This document shows positions 3,478-36,279 of a DNA stretch of 36,279 bases, one piece after another. The notes beneath the pieces are model-generated. The model had not been told where the DNA came from, ran no database searches, and saw only the letters and a program-made list of their open reading frames with translations. Within the stretch, counting starts at the first letter, position 1; every line of letters starts with the position of its first letter. The stretch comes from an uncultured Clostridia bacterium (lineage in GTDB: Bacteria; Bacillota; Clostridia; Lachnospirales; Lachnospiraceae). The position numbers and the translations under genes were made by a program. Location: positions 1-36,279 of the forward strand of contig CAMOXU010000017.1 in NCBI GenBank assembly GCA_946629525.1, read 5' to 3'.

Positions 3478-5811
3478 ATGGACAACAATAACAATAACCG
3501 CCCCGGTGGCGGCAACAACAGACAGAGTATTATCATTTTCTGCATCTGCCTGCTTGTGGGTCTCATCGGAATGAGCGTTTTCTCCAATGCGCTGAGCACC
3601 AGCACGTCGCGCGAGATCTCATATGATCAGTTCGTCAGGATGCTGGATGAAGGAAATGTCGAAAAAGTCGAGATCCTGCAGGAACGTCTGGAGATCACGC
3701 CGAAGAATCAGACGGAAGGCTACGGCAGCATCACCTACTACACGCAGCAGACGGAGGATATCACCGCGCTGACGGAAAGACTGATCGCCCATGGGGTCAG
3801 CTTCTCCAGACAGGAGACCTCGGTGGTATCGGAGATCGTCTACTCGATCCTCTCCTTCCTCATACCGTTCGTCCTCTTTATGGTCCTTCTGAGCGTCTTC
3901 ATGAACCGGATGAACAAGGGCGGCGGAGTGATGGGAGTCGGCAAGAGCAAGGCCAAAGCGTACATCCAGAAGGATACCGGGATCACATTTGCGGATGTTG
4001 CCGGTGAAGACGAAGCCAAGGAAAGCCTTCAGGAGTGTGTGGAGTTCCTGCACAATCCGGGCAAATTCACGGCTGTCGGCGCGAAACTGCCGAAGGGCGC
4101 GCTGCTCGTCGGACCTCCCGGCACAGGCAAGACGCTGCTTGCCAAGGCGGTAGCGGGGGAGGCGCATGTTCCGTTCTTCTCGCTTTCCGGTTCTGAATTT
4201 GTCGAAATGTTCGTCGGTGTCGGTGCAAGCCGTGTCCGTGACCTCTTTGAGGAAGCCAAGAAGAACGCTCCATGCATCATTTTCATCGATGAGATCGATG
4301 CGATCGGAAAATCCCGCGACGGCGGACGCTACGGAGGAAATGACGAACGCGAACAGACGCTGAACCAGCTGCTTGCGGAGATGGACGGCTTTGACGGGAC
4401 AAAGGGGATCATGATCCTCGCTGCGACGAACAGGCCGGAAGTCCTTGACAAGGCCCTTCTGCGTCCGGGCCGCTTTGACAGACGTGTCATCGTCGACAGA
4501 CCTGACCTGAAGGGAAGGATCGCGATCCTCAAGGTGCACGCGAAGGATGTGCTCATGGATGACACGGTCGATCTCGAGGGAATCGCGCTCGCGACCAGCG
4601 GTGCAGTCGGTTCGGATCTCGCCAATATGATCAATGAGGCGGCTATCCTTGCCGTCAAGAAGGGAAGACACCAGGTCTGCCAGAAGGATCTGCTCGAGGC
4701 TGTCGAGGTCGTGCTCGTCGGCAAGGAGAAGAAGGACAGGATCCTTGGAGTCGAGGAGAGACGGATCGTATCCTACCATGAGATCGGACACGCGCTCCTT
4801 TCTGCTCTTCAGAAGAATACGGAGCCTGTGCAGAAGATCACGATCACCCCGCGTACGATGGGCGCGCTCGGCTATGTCATGAATGTTCCGGAAGAGGAGA
4901 AGTTCCTGAATACCCGGAAAGAACTTGAGGCACGTCTGGTCCAGCTGCTTGGCGGCCGTGCAGCCGAGGAGATCGTCTTCGATACGGTAACGACCGGCGC
5001 TTCCAACGATATCGAGCAGGCGACGAAGATCGCGCGCGCGATGATCACACAGTACGGCATGTCCGAAAAGTTCGGCCTTATGGGACTTGCGAGCGTCGAG
5101 AACCAGTATCTCGATAACCGGGCTTACCTGAACTGCGGCGACGCAACGGCGACAGAGATCGACCACGAGATCATGAAGCTCCTGAAGAAGTCCTATGAGG
5201 AGGCCCTCCGCCTGCTCCGGGAGCACAGGGGCACGATGGATAAGCTTGCCGAGTATCTTATTAAGAAAGAGACGATCACCGGCGAAGAATTCATGAAGAT
5301 CTTCTGCGAAGTGGAAGGACTTCCGCTGCCGGAGAAAAAGACCAACACGCGGGAAGAGATCAACCGCGTGAAGCTTGATAAGGGAACCTGGGACGGCTCG
5401 CAGAGGAACCGGGACGAGCGCGGCCAGGATGCGTACGATCCCTATCGTACGGGATATGGAGCGCAGGATCCGTCCGGGAGCGGCAGAAGGATCTACCCGC
5501 AGAGTCAGGGCGGAAACGGCAGGACAGACTACCCGCAGGATCCGTACGGTGACAGAAGAGATGCTTCGCGGGATCCCTACGGCAGTCAGAGGAATGTTCC
5601 GCAGGATCCGTACGGCAGCCGGAGAGGATCTCAGAGGGATCCGTACGGCAGCCGGAGAGAAGGCTCGCAGGATTCTTACGGACCGCAGAGCAAAGAGGAC
5701 AGAATTTATCACGCTCCGGTCTATCCGGAAGATATGGGCTTTGAGGATTATGACTTCTCCGATCAGAAAGGAGAGGGAGGCTCTCAGGGCAGCAAAGAGA
5801 ACAAAAACTGA
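3478..5811 (+). CDS. ftsH: ATP-dependent zinc metalloprotease FtsH
   Basis: Walker A GPPGTGKT, Walker [13 protein letters not shown] region, HEIGH zinc motif, N-terminal TM segments; RBS AAGGAG. Confidence 0.97.
5539..5703 (+). repeat. 33-bp (11-aa) tandem repeat in the FtsH C-terminal tail
   Basis: [48 protein letters not shown]...; D codons at 5539, 5572, 5605, 5638, 5671. Confidence 0.9.
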
Positions 5812-5959: not shown

Positions 5960-8053
5960 ATGAGCGAGCACAAAGTGAAGAACGAACAGGAGTCGTCCGA
6001 AAAAACGACAGGGGATACAGGCAGGAACGAGCAGGAGCCGTCTGAAAAAACGGCAGGGGATACAGACAGGAACGAACAGGAATCGTCCGAAAAAATGACC
6101 GGGGATACAGACAGGAACGAACAGGATCCGTCCCAAAAACTGACCGGGAACAGAGACTTTATCATAGAGGAGGAACTGAAAAAACTCCCGGCACGGCCCG
6201 GCGTCTACATCATGCACGACGAGCACGACACGATCATATACGTCGGGAAGGCGGTCGTTCTGAAGAACCGGGTCCGCCAGTATTTTCAGAAGGGCTATAA
6301 GAAGAGCCCCAAGATCCAGCGGATGGTCTCGAAAGTGAGCCGTTTCGAGTATATCGTGACAGACTCTGAGCTGGAAGCCCTTGTGCTGGAATCCAACCTG
6401 ATCAAGGAGCACCGCCCGAAATACAACACGATGCTGAAGGATGACAAGAATTATCCTTATATCCGCGTCACGACGAACGAGATGTATCCGAGAGTCCTGA
6501 TCGCCAGATCGATGAAAAAAGACGGGTCAAAGTATTTCGGTCCGTACACGAACTCCACGGCAGTAAGGGATACGATCGAACTTCTGCGAAAGCTCTACCG
6601 GATCCGGGCCTGCAGCAAGCGCCTGCCTCAGGATGCCGGGAAGGACCGTCCGTGCCTCTACTACCATATCGGACAGTGCCTTGCCCCCTGCCAGGGGAAT
6701 GTCCCGGAGGAGGTCTACCGGGAGGGGATCGACCGGATGCTGGAGTTCCTGAAAGGAAAATATCAGCCGGAGATCGACCGCCTTACCGAGCGGATGATGA
6801 GCGCGTCGGAGGAAATGAATTTCGAGGAGGCCGCCCGCTGCCGTGACCTGATCGAGAGTATCCGCCAGATCGGAGAAAAGCAGAAGATCACAGGATCGGA
6901 CAGCGACGACAGGGATATTATCGCGATCGCGATGGACAGCGCGCAGGCGGAAAATGAGCCCGAACTCGCCTTCACCAGAAATGCTGTCGCTGCGGTGTTC
7001 TTCGTCCGCGGAGGCCGGCTGATCGGGAGAGAACATTTTCTGCTGGGCCCGGGGGATACGGATGAACCGGCGGAGGTGCTTTCCGCTTTCATTTCCCAGT
7101 ACTACGCGGGAGCGCCGTTCATACCGAAGGAGCTGATGCTTGACCGCGGGATCGCTGACCGGGAGCTTCTGGCGAGCTGGCTTACGAGCCGGCGGGGGGC
7201 AAAGGTCTCGATCCTGGTCCCGCAGAAAGGGACGAAGGAAAAGCTTGTGCAGATGGCGAGGGAAAATGCCGAGATGGTGCTCTCCCGCGACCGGGACCGC
7301 ATGAAAAGGGAGGAGCTGCGGACGATCGGGGCGGTGCGTGAGATCGCGCAGATACTGGGCCTTGCGACCGCAGAGCGTATGGAATCCTACGATATCTCCA
7401 ATATCAGCGGATTTGATTCCGTCGGCTCGATGATCGTCTACGAGAAGGGAAGGCCGAGGAAGAGCGATTACAGAAAATTCAAGATCAAGTGGGTCGAGGG
7501 ACCGAACGATTACGCCAGCATGGAGGAGGTCCTGACCAGAAGGTTCCGGCGGGCGAAGGACGGGGATCCGGGCTTTTCAAAGCTCCCGGACGTGATCCTG
7601 ATGGACGGCGGAAAGGGGCAGGTCCACTCCGCCGAGAAGGTCCTTCAGAAGCTCGGATTTGACATCCCGGTCGCCGGAATGGTGAAGGATGACTTTCACA
7701 GGACGCGCGGACTGTATTTCCATGATGAGGAGCTTCCGATCTCCAGAGATTCCGAGGGTTTTAAGCTGCTCACGAGGATCCAGGACGAGGTGCATCGCTT
7801 TGCGATCGAATATCACAGGCTCCTTCGCTCGAAGGGACAGGTGCACTCGGTCCTCGAGGACATCGAGGGAATCGGGGACGCCAGAAGAAAGTCCCTCCTT
7901 CGAACCTTCAAAACGGTGGAAGCTATCCGTGACGCCGGGATCGAGGAGCTCGCCCACGCACCGTCGATGAACCGTCAGGCAGCGCTCTCGGTCTACCGAT
8001 TCTTCCATGGTGAGGCGGGTGAGGAGACTGCCGCAGAAACCGATGAGGGTTGA
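5960..8053 (+). CDS. uvrC: Excinuclease ABC subunit C with a repeat-containing N-terminal extension
   Basis: PARPGVYIMHDEHDTIIYVGKAVVLKNRVRQYF GIY-YIG domain, UVR motif, C-terminal nuclease/HhH; RBS AAAGGAGG at 5941-5948. Confidence 0.95.
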   Translation: MSEHKVKNEQESSEKTTGDTGRNEQEPSEKTAGDTDRNEQESSEKMTGDTDRNEQDPSQKLTGNRDFIIEEELKKLPARPGVYIMHDEHDTIIYVGKAVVLKNRVRQYFQKGYKKSPKIQRMVSKVSRFEYIVTDSELEALVLESNLIKEHRPKYNTMLKDDKNYPYIRVTTNEMYPRVLIARSMKKDGSKYFGPYTNSTAVRDTIELLRKLYRIRACSKRLPQDAGKDRPCLYYHIGQCLAPCQGNVPEEVYREGIDRMLEFLKGKYQPEIDRLTERMMSASEEMNFEEAARCRDLIESIRQIGEKQKITGSDSDDRDIIAIAMDSAQAENEPELAFTRNAVAAVFFVRGGRLIGREHFLLGPGDTDEPAEVLSAFISQYYAGAPFIPKELMLDRGIADRELLASWLTSRRGAKVSILVPQKGTKEKLVQMARENAEMVLSRDRDRMKREELRTIGAVREIAQILGLATAERMESYDISNISGFDSVGSMIVYEKGRPRKSDYRKFKIKWVEGPNDYASMEEVLTRRFRRAKDGDPGFSKLPDVILMDGGKGQVHSAEKVLQKLGFDIPVAGMVKDDFHRTRGLYFHDEELPISRDSEGFKLLTRIQDEVHRFAIEYHRLLRSKGQVHSVLEDIEGIGDARRKSLLRTFKTVEAIRDAGIEELAHAPSMNRQAALSVYRFFHGEAGEETAAETDEG
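5981..6160 (+). repeat. 45-bp (15-aa) tandem repeat, about 4 units, in the uvrC N-terminus
   Basis: NEQESSEKTTGDTGR | NEQEPSEKTAGDTDR | NEQESSEKMTGDTDR | NEQDPSQKLTGNRD. Confidence 0.9.
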
Positions 8054-10295: not shown

Positions 10296-13015
10296 TCAAC
10301 TGCGACGGGTTCTCCGCCGGTATCCTCACCGCCGGTACCTTCTCCGCCGGTATCGCCTCCGGTCTCACCACCGGTGCCTTCGCCGCCGGTATCGCCGCCG
10401 GTGCCTTCTCCGCCGGTGTCGCCACCTGTCTCCCCGCCGGAGCTTTCGCCGGGAATACTGCCGGTATCACCGCCGGTGCCTTCGCCGCCGGTCTCTTCGC
10501 CCGGAGTCCAGGCGGGTTCTGTGGGCGCGGGCGTTGTGCTGCCCGGTGTGGGCGTCACGGTCTCGGCAGGTGTCTCCTGCCACTGATTCCATGTGTTATC
10601 CCATGTATTCTGCTGCGGCACGTAAGTGTGCGAGGAATCGCAGGTCTTTGTCGGAGCAGTGTTCGGAGCGAAATATTCAAGTCTGGAGCTGCATCCGTAG
10701 GTGGAGAGCAGTCCGGTCTCGAGACAGATCTCTTTCTTGAGCATTTCCTCCGGCATCTTGAACTGTCGTACCACCTGTGTCTGGGAAATCCTGTTCATTA
10801 CCTTCTTCCAGAGGATCTGATGATACGTATGTCCGATCCCCTCGTCCGGAAGATGCTCATCCCTGTCATAACCTGCCCACACACCGCATGTGTAGTAGGG
10901 TGTGTAACCGACGAACCAGACGTCGTTATAATCTGAAGTCGTACCGGTCTTGCCGGCGACAGGCATTCCGCAGTCGAGCTGGAGATTCTGGCCTGTACCG
11001 ACCGTGACGACGTCCTGCATCGCGCTGGTCAGAAGAGCGGCCGTGTACTTGCTGACGGCGTGCGTCTCCTCCGGTGTGTTGTCGATTATAATATTTCCGT
11101 CGTTGTCCTTGATGCTCGTGTAGAAAACGGGCTTGATATAGGTCCCATCATTCGCAAGGGCGGCATACGCTGCGGTCAGTTCCAGATTCGAAACACCGTT
11201 GTAGATACCGCCGAGAGCGAGCGGCTGGTAGACGTCGTAGCGGTTCGACAGCGTCGTGAAGCCGAACTTGAGAAGCTGATTATATGCTTCCTCAGGCGAG
11301 CTGTACTCTGTGATCGCCTTTACCGCGAGGACGTTCACGGAGTTCGCGATACCGTCGCGGACCGTAAGATTGCCCTGATAAGTATCCGTTAGCCAGTTGT
11401 GGACGTCCGTGCCGTCCGAGTACTTATACGGCTCGTCGACGATCACGGTCCCGAGCGTCAGCTTGCCGGTATCGATCGCGTTCGAGTAGGCTGCAAGGAC
11501 CTTGAACGTGGAACCCGGCTGTCTTGTCGTGTTCGTTGCGCGGTTCAGAGTCAGGGACGCGGTCTTCTGACCTCTTCCTCCGACGATCGCCTTTACCTTG
11601 CCTGTATTCTGCTCGATGATTACCATCGAGGACTGCGGCTGCGGCGTAAAGGAGGACGTCTCCGCGATGATCGTGTTCCCCTCGTCGGGATTCGCGACTT
11701 TGCTGCGGTAATCGTCGATGTAGACCTGACCTTCCTCCGGCGAATTGAAATACAGAGAGAAATCCGGGTGGCCGTTCTCCTGATAGAAGGTCCGGAGCAT
11801 TTCTCTGCTGTAATTGTGTACCTCGCCTGCGGCATCCTGTACGGAGAGTGCCCAGTCGAGCTCATAGATCGTGCCCTCCGGGAAATTCTCCGGGTTTGCA
11901 TATTCTTCATCACAGATGGCCTGAATGTCTATATCGAGAGTGGTATAGATCTTGAGACCGCCGGAATAAAGAGCCTGATAAGCCTGCGTCTCGGAGTAGC
12001 CCTTCTGCTTCTGCAGATCGCTTACGACCTGCTCGGTCAGCTCATCGATAAAGTAGGAGTAGACCGTATTTTCCGTCTGCGCGATCACTGTCTGCGCATC
12101 CAGGATCTCCTGATGGACGCGGTCGGATTCCGCGATCGCCCAGTCATGCTCCTCCTGTGTGATGTAGTTCTGCCGGAGCATGTCGCCGAGGACCTTCTCT
12201 CTGCGCTCGAGATTGTTTTCCCAGTGGCGGATCGGGTTGTATTTGCTCGGATTCTGAGTGATTCCGGCGATGACTGTCGCCTCCGCCAGATCCAGATTCT
12301 TCACATCCTTATTAAAATACTTTTTGGATGCCGCCTGGACACCGTAGGTCCCGCCGCCGAGATTGATCGTGTTGAGATAATTCTCGAGAATACGCTTCTT
12401 GGCAGCTTCCTTGCTGCCCAGGTCCTCGATGAGCTTCTCCTCGAGCTGCACAGCCAGGAACTGCTCCTGGAACTTTCGCTTGATGCGGTCGAGCAGAGTG
12501 ACTTCCTGCGTCCAGGTCGTGAAGACGTTGTTTTTCAGCAGCTGCTGGGTGATTGTGCTCGCTCCCTCCGTAAATTTAAAGCGATTTCTGACTCCGACGA
12601 CCGCGGCACGGATAATGCCCTTGGCGTCGATCCCGCTGTGCTGGAAAAAGCGCTCGTCCTCAACGGCGATGACCGCATTCTGAAGGCAGAGAGGAACATC
12701 ATCGATCGACACCGCGATCCGGTTCGAATTCGAGGTCGTGAGCTTCTGCAGCTGAATTTCATTTCCGTTGTTATCCGTCGCGTAAATGAAAGTCGCATAT
12801 CCGCTCGGCGCGATATTGATGTCCGAGATATCGGGGGCGTTCGCAATGATCCCCCTCGCAATGCCCAGAGTGCCGAAGATGCCTGTGATCAGGACAGAGA
12901 TAAATAAAATGAGGAGCAGCCGGAGCAGCATTACCCCGATGCGCCTCTGGAATCCCAGTGACGAGGATTCCAGCCGTTCTTCAATTCTTTCAATATTTTC
13001 TGTCGTGTAATTCAT
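10292..13015 (-). CDS. Class A penicillin-binding protein (transglycosylase/transpeptidase, PBP1A-like)
   Basis: EDERFFQHSGID, GASTITQQLLKN, GSTFKVLAAY (SxxK), KTGTTSDYNDVWFVGYTP; ATG at 13015 preferred. Confidence 0.95.
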   Translation of the reverse strand: MNYTTENIERIEERLESSSLGFQRRIGVMLLRLLLILFISVLITGIFGTLGIARGIIANAPDISDINIAPSGYATFIYATDNNGNEIQLQKLTTSNSNRIAVSIDDVPLCLQNAVIAVEDERFFQHSGIDAKGIIRAAVVGVRNRFKFTEGASTITQQLLKNNVFTTWTQEVTLLDRIKRKFQEQFLAVQLEEKLIEDLGSKEAAKKRILENYLNTINLGGGTYGVQAASKKYFNKDVKNLDLAEATVIAGITQNPSKYNPIRHWENNLERREKVLGDMLRQNYITQEEHDWAIAESDRVHQEILDAQTVIAQTENTVYSYFIDELTEQVVSDLQKQKGYSETQAYQALYSGGLKIYTTLDIDIQAICDEEYANPENFPEGTIYELDWALSVQDAAGEVHNYSREMLRTFYQENGHPDFSLYFNSPEEGQVYIDDYRSKVANPDEGNTIIAETSSFTPQPQSSMVIIEQNTGKVKAIVGGRGQKTASLTLNRATNTTRQPGSTFKVLAAYSNAIDTGKLTLGTVIVDEPYKYSDGTDVHNWLTDTYQGNLTVRDGIANSVNVLAVKAITEYSSPEEAYNQLLKFGFTTLSNRYDVYQPLALGGIYNGVSNLELTAAYAALANDGTYIKPVFYTSIKDNDGNIIIDNTPEETHAVSKYTAALLTSAMQDVVTVGTGQNLQLDCGMPVAGKTGTTSDYNDVWFVGYTPYYTCGVWAGYDRDEHLPDEGIGHTYHQILWKKVMNRISQTQVVRQFKMPEEMLKKEICLETGLLSTYGCSSRLEYFAPNTAPTKTCDSSHTYVPQQNTWDNTWNQWQETPAETVTPTPGSTTPAPTEPAWTPGEETGGEGTGGDTGSIPGESSGGETGGDTGGEGTGGDTGGEGTGGETGGDTGGEGTGGEDTGGEPVAVE
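10304..10500 (-). repeat. Degenerate tandem repeat encoding the Gly/Thr/Glu/Asp-rich PBP C-terminal tail
   Basis: GGETGGDTGGEGTGGDTGGEGTGGETGGDTGGEGTGG. Confidence 0.85.
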
Positions 13016-13897: not shown

Positions 13898-14416
13898 TCA
13901 GACTGTTTCCGGCTCCGGATATTCTGTTCCGAATGTTTCGACCGTCACGGTCTTCATGACGACCGGCTTGAGCGGCTTATCCGTGAAGCTCGTGCGGACA
14001 TTTGCGATCTCGTTCACCGCATCCATTCCCTCGGTCACCTTGCCGAATGCGGCGTACTGGCCGTCCAGATGCGGGGCAGCCTTGTGCATGATGAAGAACT
14101 GGCTTCCGGCTGAGTTCGGGTTCATTGCCCGCGCCATGGAGAGGACGCCGGGATCGTGCCGCAGATTATTCTCAAATCCGTTCATGGCGAACTCGCCGCG
14201 AATGTGATATCCCGGACCGCCTGTGCCTGTGCCAAGCGGGCAGCCGCCCTGGATCATGAAGCCGCTTATGATCCGGTGGAAGGTGAGGCCGTTGTAGAAG
14301 CCCTTTTTGACGAGGCTGATGAAATTATTGACTGTGTTCGGGGCGATCTCCGGATAGAGCTCGGCTTTGATGACTTTCCCGTCTTCCATGTTAAAGGTTA
14401 CGATTGGATTTGACAT
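13898..14416 (-). CDS. Peptidyl-prolyl cis-trans isomerase, cyclophilin type
   Basis: GLTFHRIISGFMIQGGCPLGTGTGGPGY...GSQFFIMHKAAPHLDGQYAAFGKVTEGMD; RBS AAAGGAG. Confidence 0.95.
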   Translation of the reverse strand: MSNPIVTFNMEDGKVIKAELYPEIAPNTVNNFISLVKKGFYNGLTFHRIISGFMIQGGCPLGTGTGGPGYHIRGEFAMNGFENNLRHDPGVLSMARAMNPNSAGSQFFIMHKAAPHLDGQYAAFGKVTEGMDAVNEIANVRTSFTDKPLKPVVMKTVTVETFGTEYPEPETV

Positions 14417-14457: not shown

Positions 14458-14722
14458 ATAGCTTATCACAAGTTGCAAAGCAACTTGTGATAAAAAGGGC
14501 TGCTTATGCAGCCCGAATTCTGCTTACAGGGTTCGCGAAGCGGTTCCTGTAAGAATAGCTTATCACAAGTTGCAAAGCAACTTGTGATAAAAAGGGCTGC
14601 TATGCAGCCCGAATTCTGCTTACAGGGTTCGCGAAGCGGTTCCTGTAAGAATAGCTTATCACAAGTTGCAAAGCAGCTTGTGATAAAAAGGGCCCCCGAG
14701 GGGCCGGTCCGGCCCCCTGCAC
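14458..14722 (+). repeat. 96-97 bp tandem repeat array (two full units plus a diverged third) made of three successive hairpins
   Basis: ATAGCTTATCACAAGTTGCAAAGC starts at 14458, 14555 and 14651; each full unit holds a 14-bp, a 7-bp and an 8-bp stem hairpin. Confidence 0.92.
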
Positions 14723-14737
14723 AGAATATGTTTCTAA

Positions 14738-14766
14738 TTTACGGAAGAGGGATTGTGTGATATACT
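14738..14766 (+). promoter_or_regulatory. Candidate promoter for tsaE
   Basis: TTTACG - 17 bp - TATACT directly downstream of the repeat array. Confidence 0.5.
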
Positions 14767-14836: not shown

Positions 14837-15283
14837 GTGAATCCGAAAATGAGAATTATTGAATCCATGAGCCGGGAGGAGACCTTCGAACTCGGCCGGG
14901 AAATCGGAAAAAATGCAAAGCCGTATTCCGTCTTCGCCCTCACGGGAGATCTTGGGACGGGCAAGACGGTCTTTACGCAGGGCGTAGCCTGCGGGCTCGG
15001 GATCACCGAACCGGTCACCAGCCCGACCTTTACGATCCTGCAGACATATGACGGGGGCAGACTTCCCTTTTTTCATTTTGATGTATACCGGATCGACGAT
15101 ATCGACGAGATGGAGGAGATCGGCTATGACGACTGCTTCATGAAGGGCGGAGTGTGTCTCATCGAGTGGGCGGAGATCATTGAGGAACTTCTGCCGGAGA
15201 ATACCGTGAGAATAAAGATCGAGAAGGATCCCGCGAAAGGGACGGAGTACAGGCGGATCACTGTCACGGGAGAACTGTTCTGA
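14837..15283 (+). CDS. tsaE: tRNA (adenosine(37)-N6)-threonylcarbamoyltransferase complex ATPase TsaE
   Basis: LTGDLGTGKTVFTQGVACGLGI...SPTFTILQTY...HFDVYRI...LIEWAE. Confidence 0.95.
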   Translation: MNPKMRIIESMSREETFELGREIGKNAKPYSVFALTGDLGTGKTVFTQGVACGLGITEPVTSPTFTILQTYDGGRLPFFHFDVYRIDDIDEMEEIGYDDCFMKGGVCLIEWAEIIEELLPENTVRIKIEKDPAKGTEYRRITVTGELF

Positions 15284-28416: not shown

Positions 28417-29754
28417 ATGAATATGAGAGCTGAAATCGAGAAGCATCTGAACGATCTGATCATCCCTTTCTGGGAAAAACTTATAGATAAGGAAAACGGC
28501 GGATTTTACGGCTACATGGGGTATGATCTCGCCGTCGATAAAGAAGCGGTGAAGGGATGCATCCTGAACAGCCGCATCACATGGGTCTTCTCCGCCGCGG
28601 CCAAATATTATGAAGAGAGGAACCCGGAGAAGGCTTCGGAGCTCCTTTCCTATGCCCGCCACGGATATGAATTCATGAGATCCGCCTGCTATGACGGGGA
28701 ATACGGCGGGATGCTCTGGTCCGTCACATTTGACGGGAAGCCGGAGGATACGACGAAGCACACCTATAACCAGGCTTTCTCGATCTATGCGCTCGCGGCC
28801 TACTACGATGCTTCGGGGGATTCGGAAGCACTCGCCCTTGCGCAGGAGATCTACAATATCATCGAGACGAAGTGCCGCGACGAGGGCGGTTATCTCGAGG
28901 CCTTTGACAGAGCGTTCGGGCCCGGGTACAATGACAAGCTCTCGGAGAACGGCGTCATCGCAGAGCGCACGATGAATACCGCTCTGCATGTCCTTGAGGC
29001 ATACACGGAATTCTACAGGATGCTTACAGTCTGCGAGCGGGAAGGCAAAACCTTTGCCGGAGCCGTTCCGGCAAGAGAAGTCGGGGAGAAGCTCGTCGAG
29101 ATCCTCCGCATCTTCGCCGACAAGATGTATAATCCCGAAAAGCACCGCCAGGAAGTCTTCTTTGACCATGAGTACAATACGCTGATCGACCTCATTTCCT
29201 ACGGGCACGACATTGAATCCTCCTGGCTCATTGACCGCACGGTGGATGTGATCCGTGCCGCCCTGACGGGAGGAGAACTCACGGCCGACGCTGTCACGGC
29301 GATGGCGGCTGAACCGGCTCCTGTCCTTCAGGAGTTCGCCTCCACCGACGAGGCCATGTCAGAGGTCTTCGCGCTCCTTGACCGCGTGAACCGCATGGAT
29401 GCCGAGATGCTCGACAACGTGACGCGGGAAGCCTTCGACGGGCATTCGCTTGCCATGGAGGCGGAGAACGGCGTGAAAAATGAAGACCGCATCTGGTGGG
29501 CCCAGGGCGAAATGATCACCGCGTTCTGGAACGGCTGGCAGCATGATCCGGAGAGAGAAGACTATAAGGAAAATGCAGAGGCTGCCTGGGTGTTCGTGCG
29601 CGACATGCTGACGGATAAGCGCGAGGGATCCGAATGGTTCTGGCTTCTTGACAAGGACGGAAAGCCCTATGAGGACAGGCCAATCGTCGAGCCGTGGAAG
29701 TGCCCGTACCACAACGGACGGATGTGCCTTGAGATGATGCGGCGGCTTCCGTAA
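28417..29754 (+). CDS. AGE-family epimerase (cellobiose 2-epimerase / N-acylglucosamine 2-epimerase-like)
   Basis: IIPFWEKLIDKENGGFYGYMGYDL...SRITWVFSAA...KHTYNQAFSIYALAAYY...WWAQGEMITAFWNGW. Confidence 0.88.
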   Translation: MNMRAEIEKHLNDLIIPFWEKLIDKENGGFYGYMGYDLAVDKEAVKGCILNSRITWVFSAAAKYYEERNPEKASELLSYARHGYEFMRSACYDGEYGGMLWSVTFDGKPEDTTKHTYNQAFSIYALAAYYDASGDSEALALAQEIYNIIETKCRDEGGYLEAFDRAFGPGYNDKLSENGVIAERTMNTALHVLEAYTEFYRMLTVCEREGKTFAGAVPAREVGEKLVEILRIFADKMYNPEKHRQEVFFDHEYNTLIDLISYGHDIESSWLIDRTVDVIRAALTGGELTADAVTAMAAEPAPVLQEFASTDEAMSEVFALLDRVNRMDAEMLDNVTREAFDGHSLAMEAENGVKNEDRIWWAQGEMITAFWNGWQHDPEREDYKENAEAAWVFVRDMLTDKREGSEWFWLLDKDGKPYEDRPIVEPWKCPYHNGRMCLEMMRRLP

Positions 29755-29915
29755 GCATGAGTGTACGAGATGATGAGACGGATCCTGTGAAGCGCGAGTA
29801 TACGAGATGTTGACACGGATCCCATGAAGCGCGAGTGTACGAGATGCTGACAGGGATCCTGCGAAGCATGACTATACCGGATGATGGAGCGGCCTTCATG
29901 AGGCACGAATATATC
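29718..29915 (+). repeat. Degenerate tandem repeat, about 37 bp period, about 4-5 copies, extending from the AGE epimerase 3' end
   Basis: TGTACGAGATGATGAGACGGATCCTGTGAAGCGCGAG and variants; the gene 3' end (GAGATGATGCGGCGGCTTCCGTAAGCATGAG) matches the unit. Confidence 0.8.
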
Positions 29916-36164: not shown

Positions 36165-36279
36165 ATATATCTTATCGGAAGTTGCGTAAGCAACTGACGA
36201 TAAAAGGGCTGCAACGCAGACCGAATTATGATTATGAGGTTCGCGAAGCGGTTCTCATAATATATCTTATCGGAAGTTC
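36165..36279 (+). repeat. Second locus of the three-hairpin repeat (95-bp period), truncated by the window end
   Basis: ATATATCTTATCGGAAGTT at 36165 and again at 36260; contains the invariant core GTTCGCGAAGCGGTT. Confidence 0.88.

Follow-up and report, generated by a model that had tools for sequence, protein, structure and literature searches.

A three-hairpin tandem repeat family of Lachnospiraceae found behind TAAT and -10-like motifs at gene starts

Among the closest described repeats, REP hairpins carry a GTAG or GTGG tetranucleotide as their 5′ foot (PMC6006769) and REP clusters alternate in orientation (PMC2817692), the pneumococcal elements BOX, RUP, and SPRITE are over-represented between convergent genes (PMC3049150), and BrickBuilt is a MITE that contains a minisatellite (PMC4596501). 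Here, we analyzed a stretch of 36,279 nucleotides from a Lachnospiraceae genome (the window, meaning the whole stretch), in which an intergenic tandem array had been predicted to be a structured repeat family similar in concept to REP/BIME elements. Lachnospiraceae are major gut bacteria.

The family resembles REP/BIME elements in consisting of imperfect palindromes that are short and extragenic, in its copy number of about 100 per genome, in having a hairpin with an internal mismatch, and in its species-patchy distribution and clustering, and as a concept the likeness holds. However, both the GT[AG]G foot and a linked RAYT (TnpA-REP) were sought and neither was found; aligned copies have ATATC or AGATC at the foot of hairpin I and TGATTA at that of hairpin III, with no GTAG or GTGG. 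The units are also arranged head-to-tail rather than alternating, are located at gene starts after TAAT or TATAAT, and consist of three hairpins in about 95 bp. With BOX, RUP, and SPRITE of Streptococcus pneumoniae, the family has in common its modular build, variable tandem copy number, RNA fold, and intergenic location, as well as an autonomous partner that is not encoded within the repeat, but it is depleted between convergent genes and points with the downstream gene; BOX was set apart by description. MITEs (Correia, BrickBuilt, and others) are likewise non-coding, strongly folded, and inserted near genes or promoters, whereas the copies studied here have no terminal inverted repeat that is consistent across them and no proven target-site duplication. 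Finally, an IS200/IS605-type single-strand hairpin element would be expected to have subterminal hairpins and a short motif at its boundary, for which TAAT would stand here, but none of the units tested has a Y1 gene as its neighbor, and IS200 copies examined by eye have ends unlike the unit.

The repeat is of a known broad kind, the short interspersed palindromic repeats, and is real, ordered, and new to the resources searched; what is unusual for that kind is its place of residence and its very strict core. In the literature searched, no description of such a Lachnospiraceae repeat was found, although it may be present unnamed in the supplements of a large microbiome RNA survey (PMC8040213). 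On balance, we think it likely that the family is a non-autonomous, REP/BOX-like, and probably mobile palindrome that has TAAT or the -10 box as its target and is transcribed in 5′ leaders.

The array, its units, and its relatives

The array at 14458 to 14722 on the plus strand contains two complete units and one truncated unit, head-to-tail. Re-derivation of the hairpin coordinates confirmed the predicted three-hairpin tandem unit and its starts at 14458, 14555, and 14651 (spacings of 97 and 96), and TRF reported an array at 14458 to 14693 with a period of 96, 2.4 copies, and 98% matches. Unit 1 (14458 to 14551, 97-bp period; covariance-model match 14463 to 14552, 93.6 bits) is composed of hairpin I (14463 to 14493), with a 14-bp perfect stem (−17.9 kcal/mol), hairpin II (14497 to 14514), and hairpin III (14523 to 14553), which holds the near-invariant family core GGTTCGCGAAGCGGTTC. 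In unit 2 (14555 to 14650; model match 14560 to 14648, 93.9 bits), the three hairpins are at 14560 to 14590, 14594 to 14610, and 14619 to 14649, and the loop of hairpin II is one base shorter. Hairpin I of both units reads TTATCACAAGTTGC-AAA-GCAACTTGTGATAA, and hairpin II of a complete unit has a 7-bp stem with A5 in front. Hairpin III has an outer 8-bp stem and an inner CGC-GAA-GCG, with GUU facing GUU in between; once folded, it forms an unbroken helix in which one U-U mismatch is flanked by two G-U pairs.

Unit 3 (14651 to 14722) gave a partial model match (L001:1699-1752, 36.2 bits). Its hairpin I (14656 to 14686) is a G-U variant with one wobble, as had been noted from the single change in this stem. 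The replacement of its hairpin II by other palindromes was also read correctly, these being unrelated and G+C-rich, with GGCCCCCGAGGGGCC (14691 to 14705) overlapping GGGGCCGGTCCGGCCCC (14700 to 14716), but the unit is truncated and lacks hairpin III altogether. The 283-nt array RNA folds at −145.7 kcal/mol, compared with −82.1 ± 4.7 kcal/mol for dinucleotide shuffles (z = −13.6), so that the folding of the array is far above chance.

A second, diverged array of the same family, overlooked in the original prediction, is located at the end of the window (36172 to 36279, plus strand), where one complete unit (36172 to 36260) is followed by the start of another that is cut by the contig end. The repeat breaks assemblies: besides the window's own contig, which stops inside a unit, contigs C77, C93, C143, C161, C41, and C79 of G000 end in this way. 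Because contigs end inside units, the copy numbers given below are minimum values, and arrays may have been collapsed in length.

A covariance model (R1) built from 27 units gave 126 matches (E < 1e-3) in the window's own 2.73-Mb genome, in which blastn gave 47, and the 17-nt core, with two mismatches at most, 93 (reversed control, 0). Rather than being few and broken by random substitutions in the stems, the copies are non-random and carry compensatory stem changes, which bears out the proposed structured repeat family. Within the genus, 13 of 42 genomes carry the family, with 1 to 103 matches each, and the others have none. Across Lachnospiraceae, 12 of 299 genomes matched by the model and 6 of 397 by pattern, the matches in other genera being patchy and diverged, and in a class-wide sample of 392 genomes the hairpin III pattern was found in the window's own genome only. 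As far as sampled, matches are confined to Lachnospiraceae, in keeping with the placement suggested initially.

At least 100 stretches matched hairpin III in a scan of GTDB contigs, and the titles among the matches listed read Lachnospiraceae, Roseburia, Acetatifactor, Eubacterium sp., uncultured Clostridiales, or bacterium with no further name. At least one hairpin III is present in the culturable Acetatifactor muris DSM 23669. Of 91 hairpin III occurrences among the matches listed, 47 are accompanied by hairpins I and II and 44 are not; some of the latter are short tandem arrays of hairpin III only, often directly behind TATAAT. The core of hairpin III was also found without the other two hairpins in other genera. 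Since 44 of 91 occurrences lack them, hairpin III is the common module, with hairpins I and II as its partners in the genus and some others. Rfam release 15 has no family that matches over the array, at gathering or relaxed thresholds, so no exact counterpart among described families emerged there; a weak match elsewhere, to a eukaryotic snoRNA (E 3.9), is a chance one. DNA searches of viral contigs, phage records, and plasmid records returned no unit.

Stem covariation and the core of hairpin III

In an alignment by MAFFT, made without fitting to the structure, 91.5% of the cells pair, and 14 of 29 pairs have changed on both sides. The covariation score was 0.249, compared with 0.097 for shuffled alignments (0 of 500 as high) and 0.05 to 0.09 for slid ones. 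Covariation is carried by hairpins I and III, while MAFFT misaligned hairpin II owing to the variable length of its loop. To collect the units, the core had served as anchor and the beginning of hairpin I had been defined loosely, a rule that leaves the outer stem of hairpin III untouched. On the plus strand, G-U exceeds A-C (49:26 outside three inherited columns, p 0.01), a weak sign that this is the folding strand.

Among 150 distinct hairpins III in which both the outer and the inner stem are intact (counted on both strands as 300 entries), 145 retain the facing GTT/GTT, although the invariance of the core is somewhat inflated by its having served as query or anchor for part of the sampling. 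A single one of the 150 is a perfect palindrome (L044), and this is what would be produced by template-switch (quasi-palindrome) correction, by which pairing could be maintained in old, functionless palindromes that no longer move. Such correction should erase the mismatch, yet nearly all hairpins III retain it, and neither the TAAT boundary nor the orientation of the arrays would be explained; we hold this to be the most improbable of the explanations weighed here. Palindromic arms, high copy number, and intergenic location are also what would be expected if the repeat were bound as double-stranded DNA by an architectural or regulatory protein, as has been proposed for some REP/BIME functions. 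The best conserved segment, however, is the non-palindromic one, whereas the palindromic outer arms change freely in pairs, and a double-stranded site is therefore very improbable as well.

For a mobile palindrome, the conserved mismatch fits better with a folded single strand than with a double-stranded palindrome as the recognized form, and movement would require a trans-acting factor that recognizes the folded single strand of hairpin III. This strictly conserved mismatch offers a defined bait for the factor that recognizes or moves the repeat.

Promoter motifs, gene orientation, and transcription

The location of the family after TAAT or TATAAT at gene starts, co-oriented with the downstream gene, had escaped the original prediction. 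The left flank reads (T)ATAAT-A-T/G-ATC, hairpin I usually begins 5 nt after TAAT, and 51 of 129 arrays have a TATAAT-like hexamer at a fixed distance ahead of hairpin I, compared with a mean of 1.05 per other offset. In this TATAAT subset, -35-like hexamers (at least 4 of 6 positions) peak at spacings of 17 (24%) and 18 (14%), with usually 2 to 6% and at most 10% at other spacings, and the extended -10 motif TGn precedes the hexamer in 27% versus 6%. Because of the hexamer, the -35 spacing, and the TGn enrichment, a substantial minority of arrays are predicted to start at about +1 of sigma-70-type promoters.

The family is mostly intergenic. By gene calls that were crude (open reading frames defined by codon usage) and array counts that include orthologous sites and are hence not fully independent, the right-hand gene is co-oriented with the array in 70 of 90 cases (70:20, p 1e-7), and arrays lie between divergent rather than convergent genes at 27:3. 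Co-orientation is 27:1 behind TATAAT and 43:19 without it.

Such a leader position with co-orientation would also be produced by a selected cis-regulatory leader RNA, acting as a 5′-terminal stabilizer, an attenuator, or a binding site for a protein or small molecule. Stem covariation, the tolerance of G-U above A-C on the plus strand, and the conserved internal mismatch of hairpin III are all consistent with this. On the other hand, the genes downstream of the arrays are unrelated to each other, presence is patchy and the loci are not conserved, no attenuator is visible, the plus-strand hairpins having no U-run, and of the 62 arrays that lack TATAAT, 19 are directed away from the gene on their right. 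The placement would, moreover, be the same for a mobile element with a target, and we regard a selected leader RNA as possible but doubtful. A passive mobile repeat with a promoter target explains most with least, and a role as leader RNA may follow from it.

If the repeat is such a mobile palindrome, a unit would enter directly 3′ of a TAAT, often the end of the -10 box TATAAT, and its right end would provide another TAAT, after which the array would expand in place by tandem duplication. Because its left end would be at or near the promoter +1, the unit would then be read within the 5′ leader of the downstream gene at many loci. The transcribed hairpins may alter expression, either as a 5′-terminal hairpin or through hairpin II with its U-run stopping antisense transcription. 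Should units land at -10 boxes and be transcribed, dozens of genes per genome would have removable leader structures of variable copy number, and thereby offer a natural series in which to test the effect of leader hairpins on expression. The -10 element is single-stranded in the open transcription complex, and a more specific, rather unlikely version is that the family targets promoters by inserting units as folded single strands at this element in the open complex. The promoter would then be kept, with hairpin I at the first transcribed bases, and the repeat could add structured leaders to many genes while leaving their promoters intact.

In the window, the array sits between divergent genes: on the left, a cyclophilin-type peptidyl-prolyl isomerase gene (13898 to 14416, minus strand; PF00160, E 2.2e-49), and on the right, tsaE for tRNA threonylcarbamoyladenosine biosynthesis (14837 to 15283, plus strand; PF02367, E 9.6e-41). 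A promoter-like site for tsaE, TTTACG-17-TATACT with TG before the -10, is present at 14738 to 14766 on the plus strand, and its -10 region is conserved in the related genome G033. The array is followed by this probable promoter and only then by the gene, and is therefore outside the tsaE leader. For the cyclophilin gene on the minus strand, the array takes the place of the DNA upstream of the -10.

Read on the minus strand, hairpin II of unit 1 is followed by TTTTT, and together they are predicted to have the shape of an intrinsic terminator, on this strand only; hairpin II of unit 2 is likewise terminator-like there. It could accordingly be proposed that the function of the repeat is to end opposing transcription and insulate promoters, with the other hairpins as passengers. 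The window region has 10 terminator-like sites versus 1.9 expected, three of which are hairpin II of units, GGGCUGCAUAAGCAGCCCUUUUU folds at −14.7 kcal/mol, and the A4-5 ahead of hairpin II is conserved. But hairpin II, less conserved than either of the other two, is replaced or absent in relatives, and hairpins I and III, the covariation, the near-invariant core, and the TAAT boundary would be left unexplained. We find this explanation improbable.

Mobility, array growth, and the search for a helper

Comparisons between related genomes are consistent with a repeat that moves. Two close relatives lack the array at this locus, G033 in the intergenic region between ppi and tsaE (TsaE 90% identical; 24 matches elsewhere) and G035 upstream of tsaE (TsaE 93% identical; 45 matches elsewhere), in a region that is otherwise changed too, such that the exact empty site is not readable. 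At L092, the sequence is homologous to that of two relatives, G003 and G017, up to GGTAAT and no further, and this is precisely the point at which the unit starts. No empty/filled pair that is clean at both junctions was found, and a query composed of flanks, run against the genus to find empty sites, gave no junction-spanning match, mostly hitting another dispersed repeat. This second repeat, of about 185 bp (AAGCCTCCGGCGGATCGCAGCC...GGCGTTCCTGAA), makes up positions 451 to 638 of the flank query, is abundant in the unit-rich genus genomes G035, G033, G022, G020, and G000, and sometimes abuts a unit (L010, L102, L243, L258, L262, and L279).

Adjacent units have a median identity of 98.5%, compared with 75% for random pairs, and since neighboring units are usually near-identical, arrays grow through duplication in place. 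A few arrays of mixed units point to insertion on more than one occasion or to recombination. G020 (L204) and G022 (L089) share an insertion site that is occupied by about one and a half units in one species and by one in the other, and a hybrid of hairpin III and hairpin I is found there, as if units had recombined within the array.

Most copies have TAAT at both ends. Unusual left variants have a right-end counterpart in a few copies (e.g., L352) and are unmatched in most, and a long target-site duplication as a rule is therefore unsupported. The inverted pair TTATCGG/CCGATAA occurs in one hairpin III subtype only and not in the TACAGG or TATGAG subtypes.

With respect to a helper, no Y1 gene (IS200/IS605/RAYT) was found beside the units tested, and an all-against-all comparison of neighboring proteins gave no recurrent transposase-like cluster; as no Y1 gene adjoins units, Y1/RAYT was rejected as a linked helper. 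Strong or fragmentary IS200-type Y1 genes are present in 16 genus genomes, namely all 9 with at least 4 units versus 7 of the 33 others (p 3e-5), a co-occurrence that is weak because unit number also rises with genome size. The Y1 genes were of two kinds, short and strong IS200-type ones that co-occur with units, and longer, weaker RAYT-like matches mostly in genomes with zero or one unit.

The window also contains other tandem repeats. Two adjacent genes have in-frame ones, with 33-bp units in the FtsH C terminus (5533 to 5681) and 45-bp units in the annotated start region of UvrC (5980 to 6139). Further repeats are located in the C-terminal part of a penicillin-binding protein gene (10311 to 10501), and an N-acylglucosamine 2-epimerase-like gene ends in 37-bp repeats (29731 to 29908).
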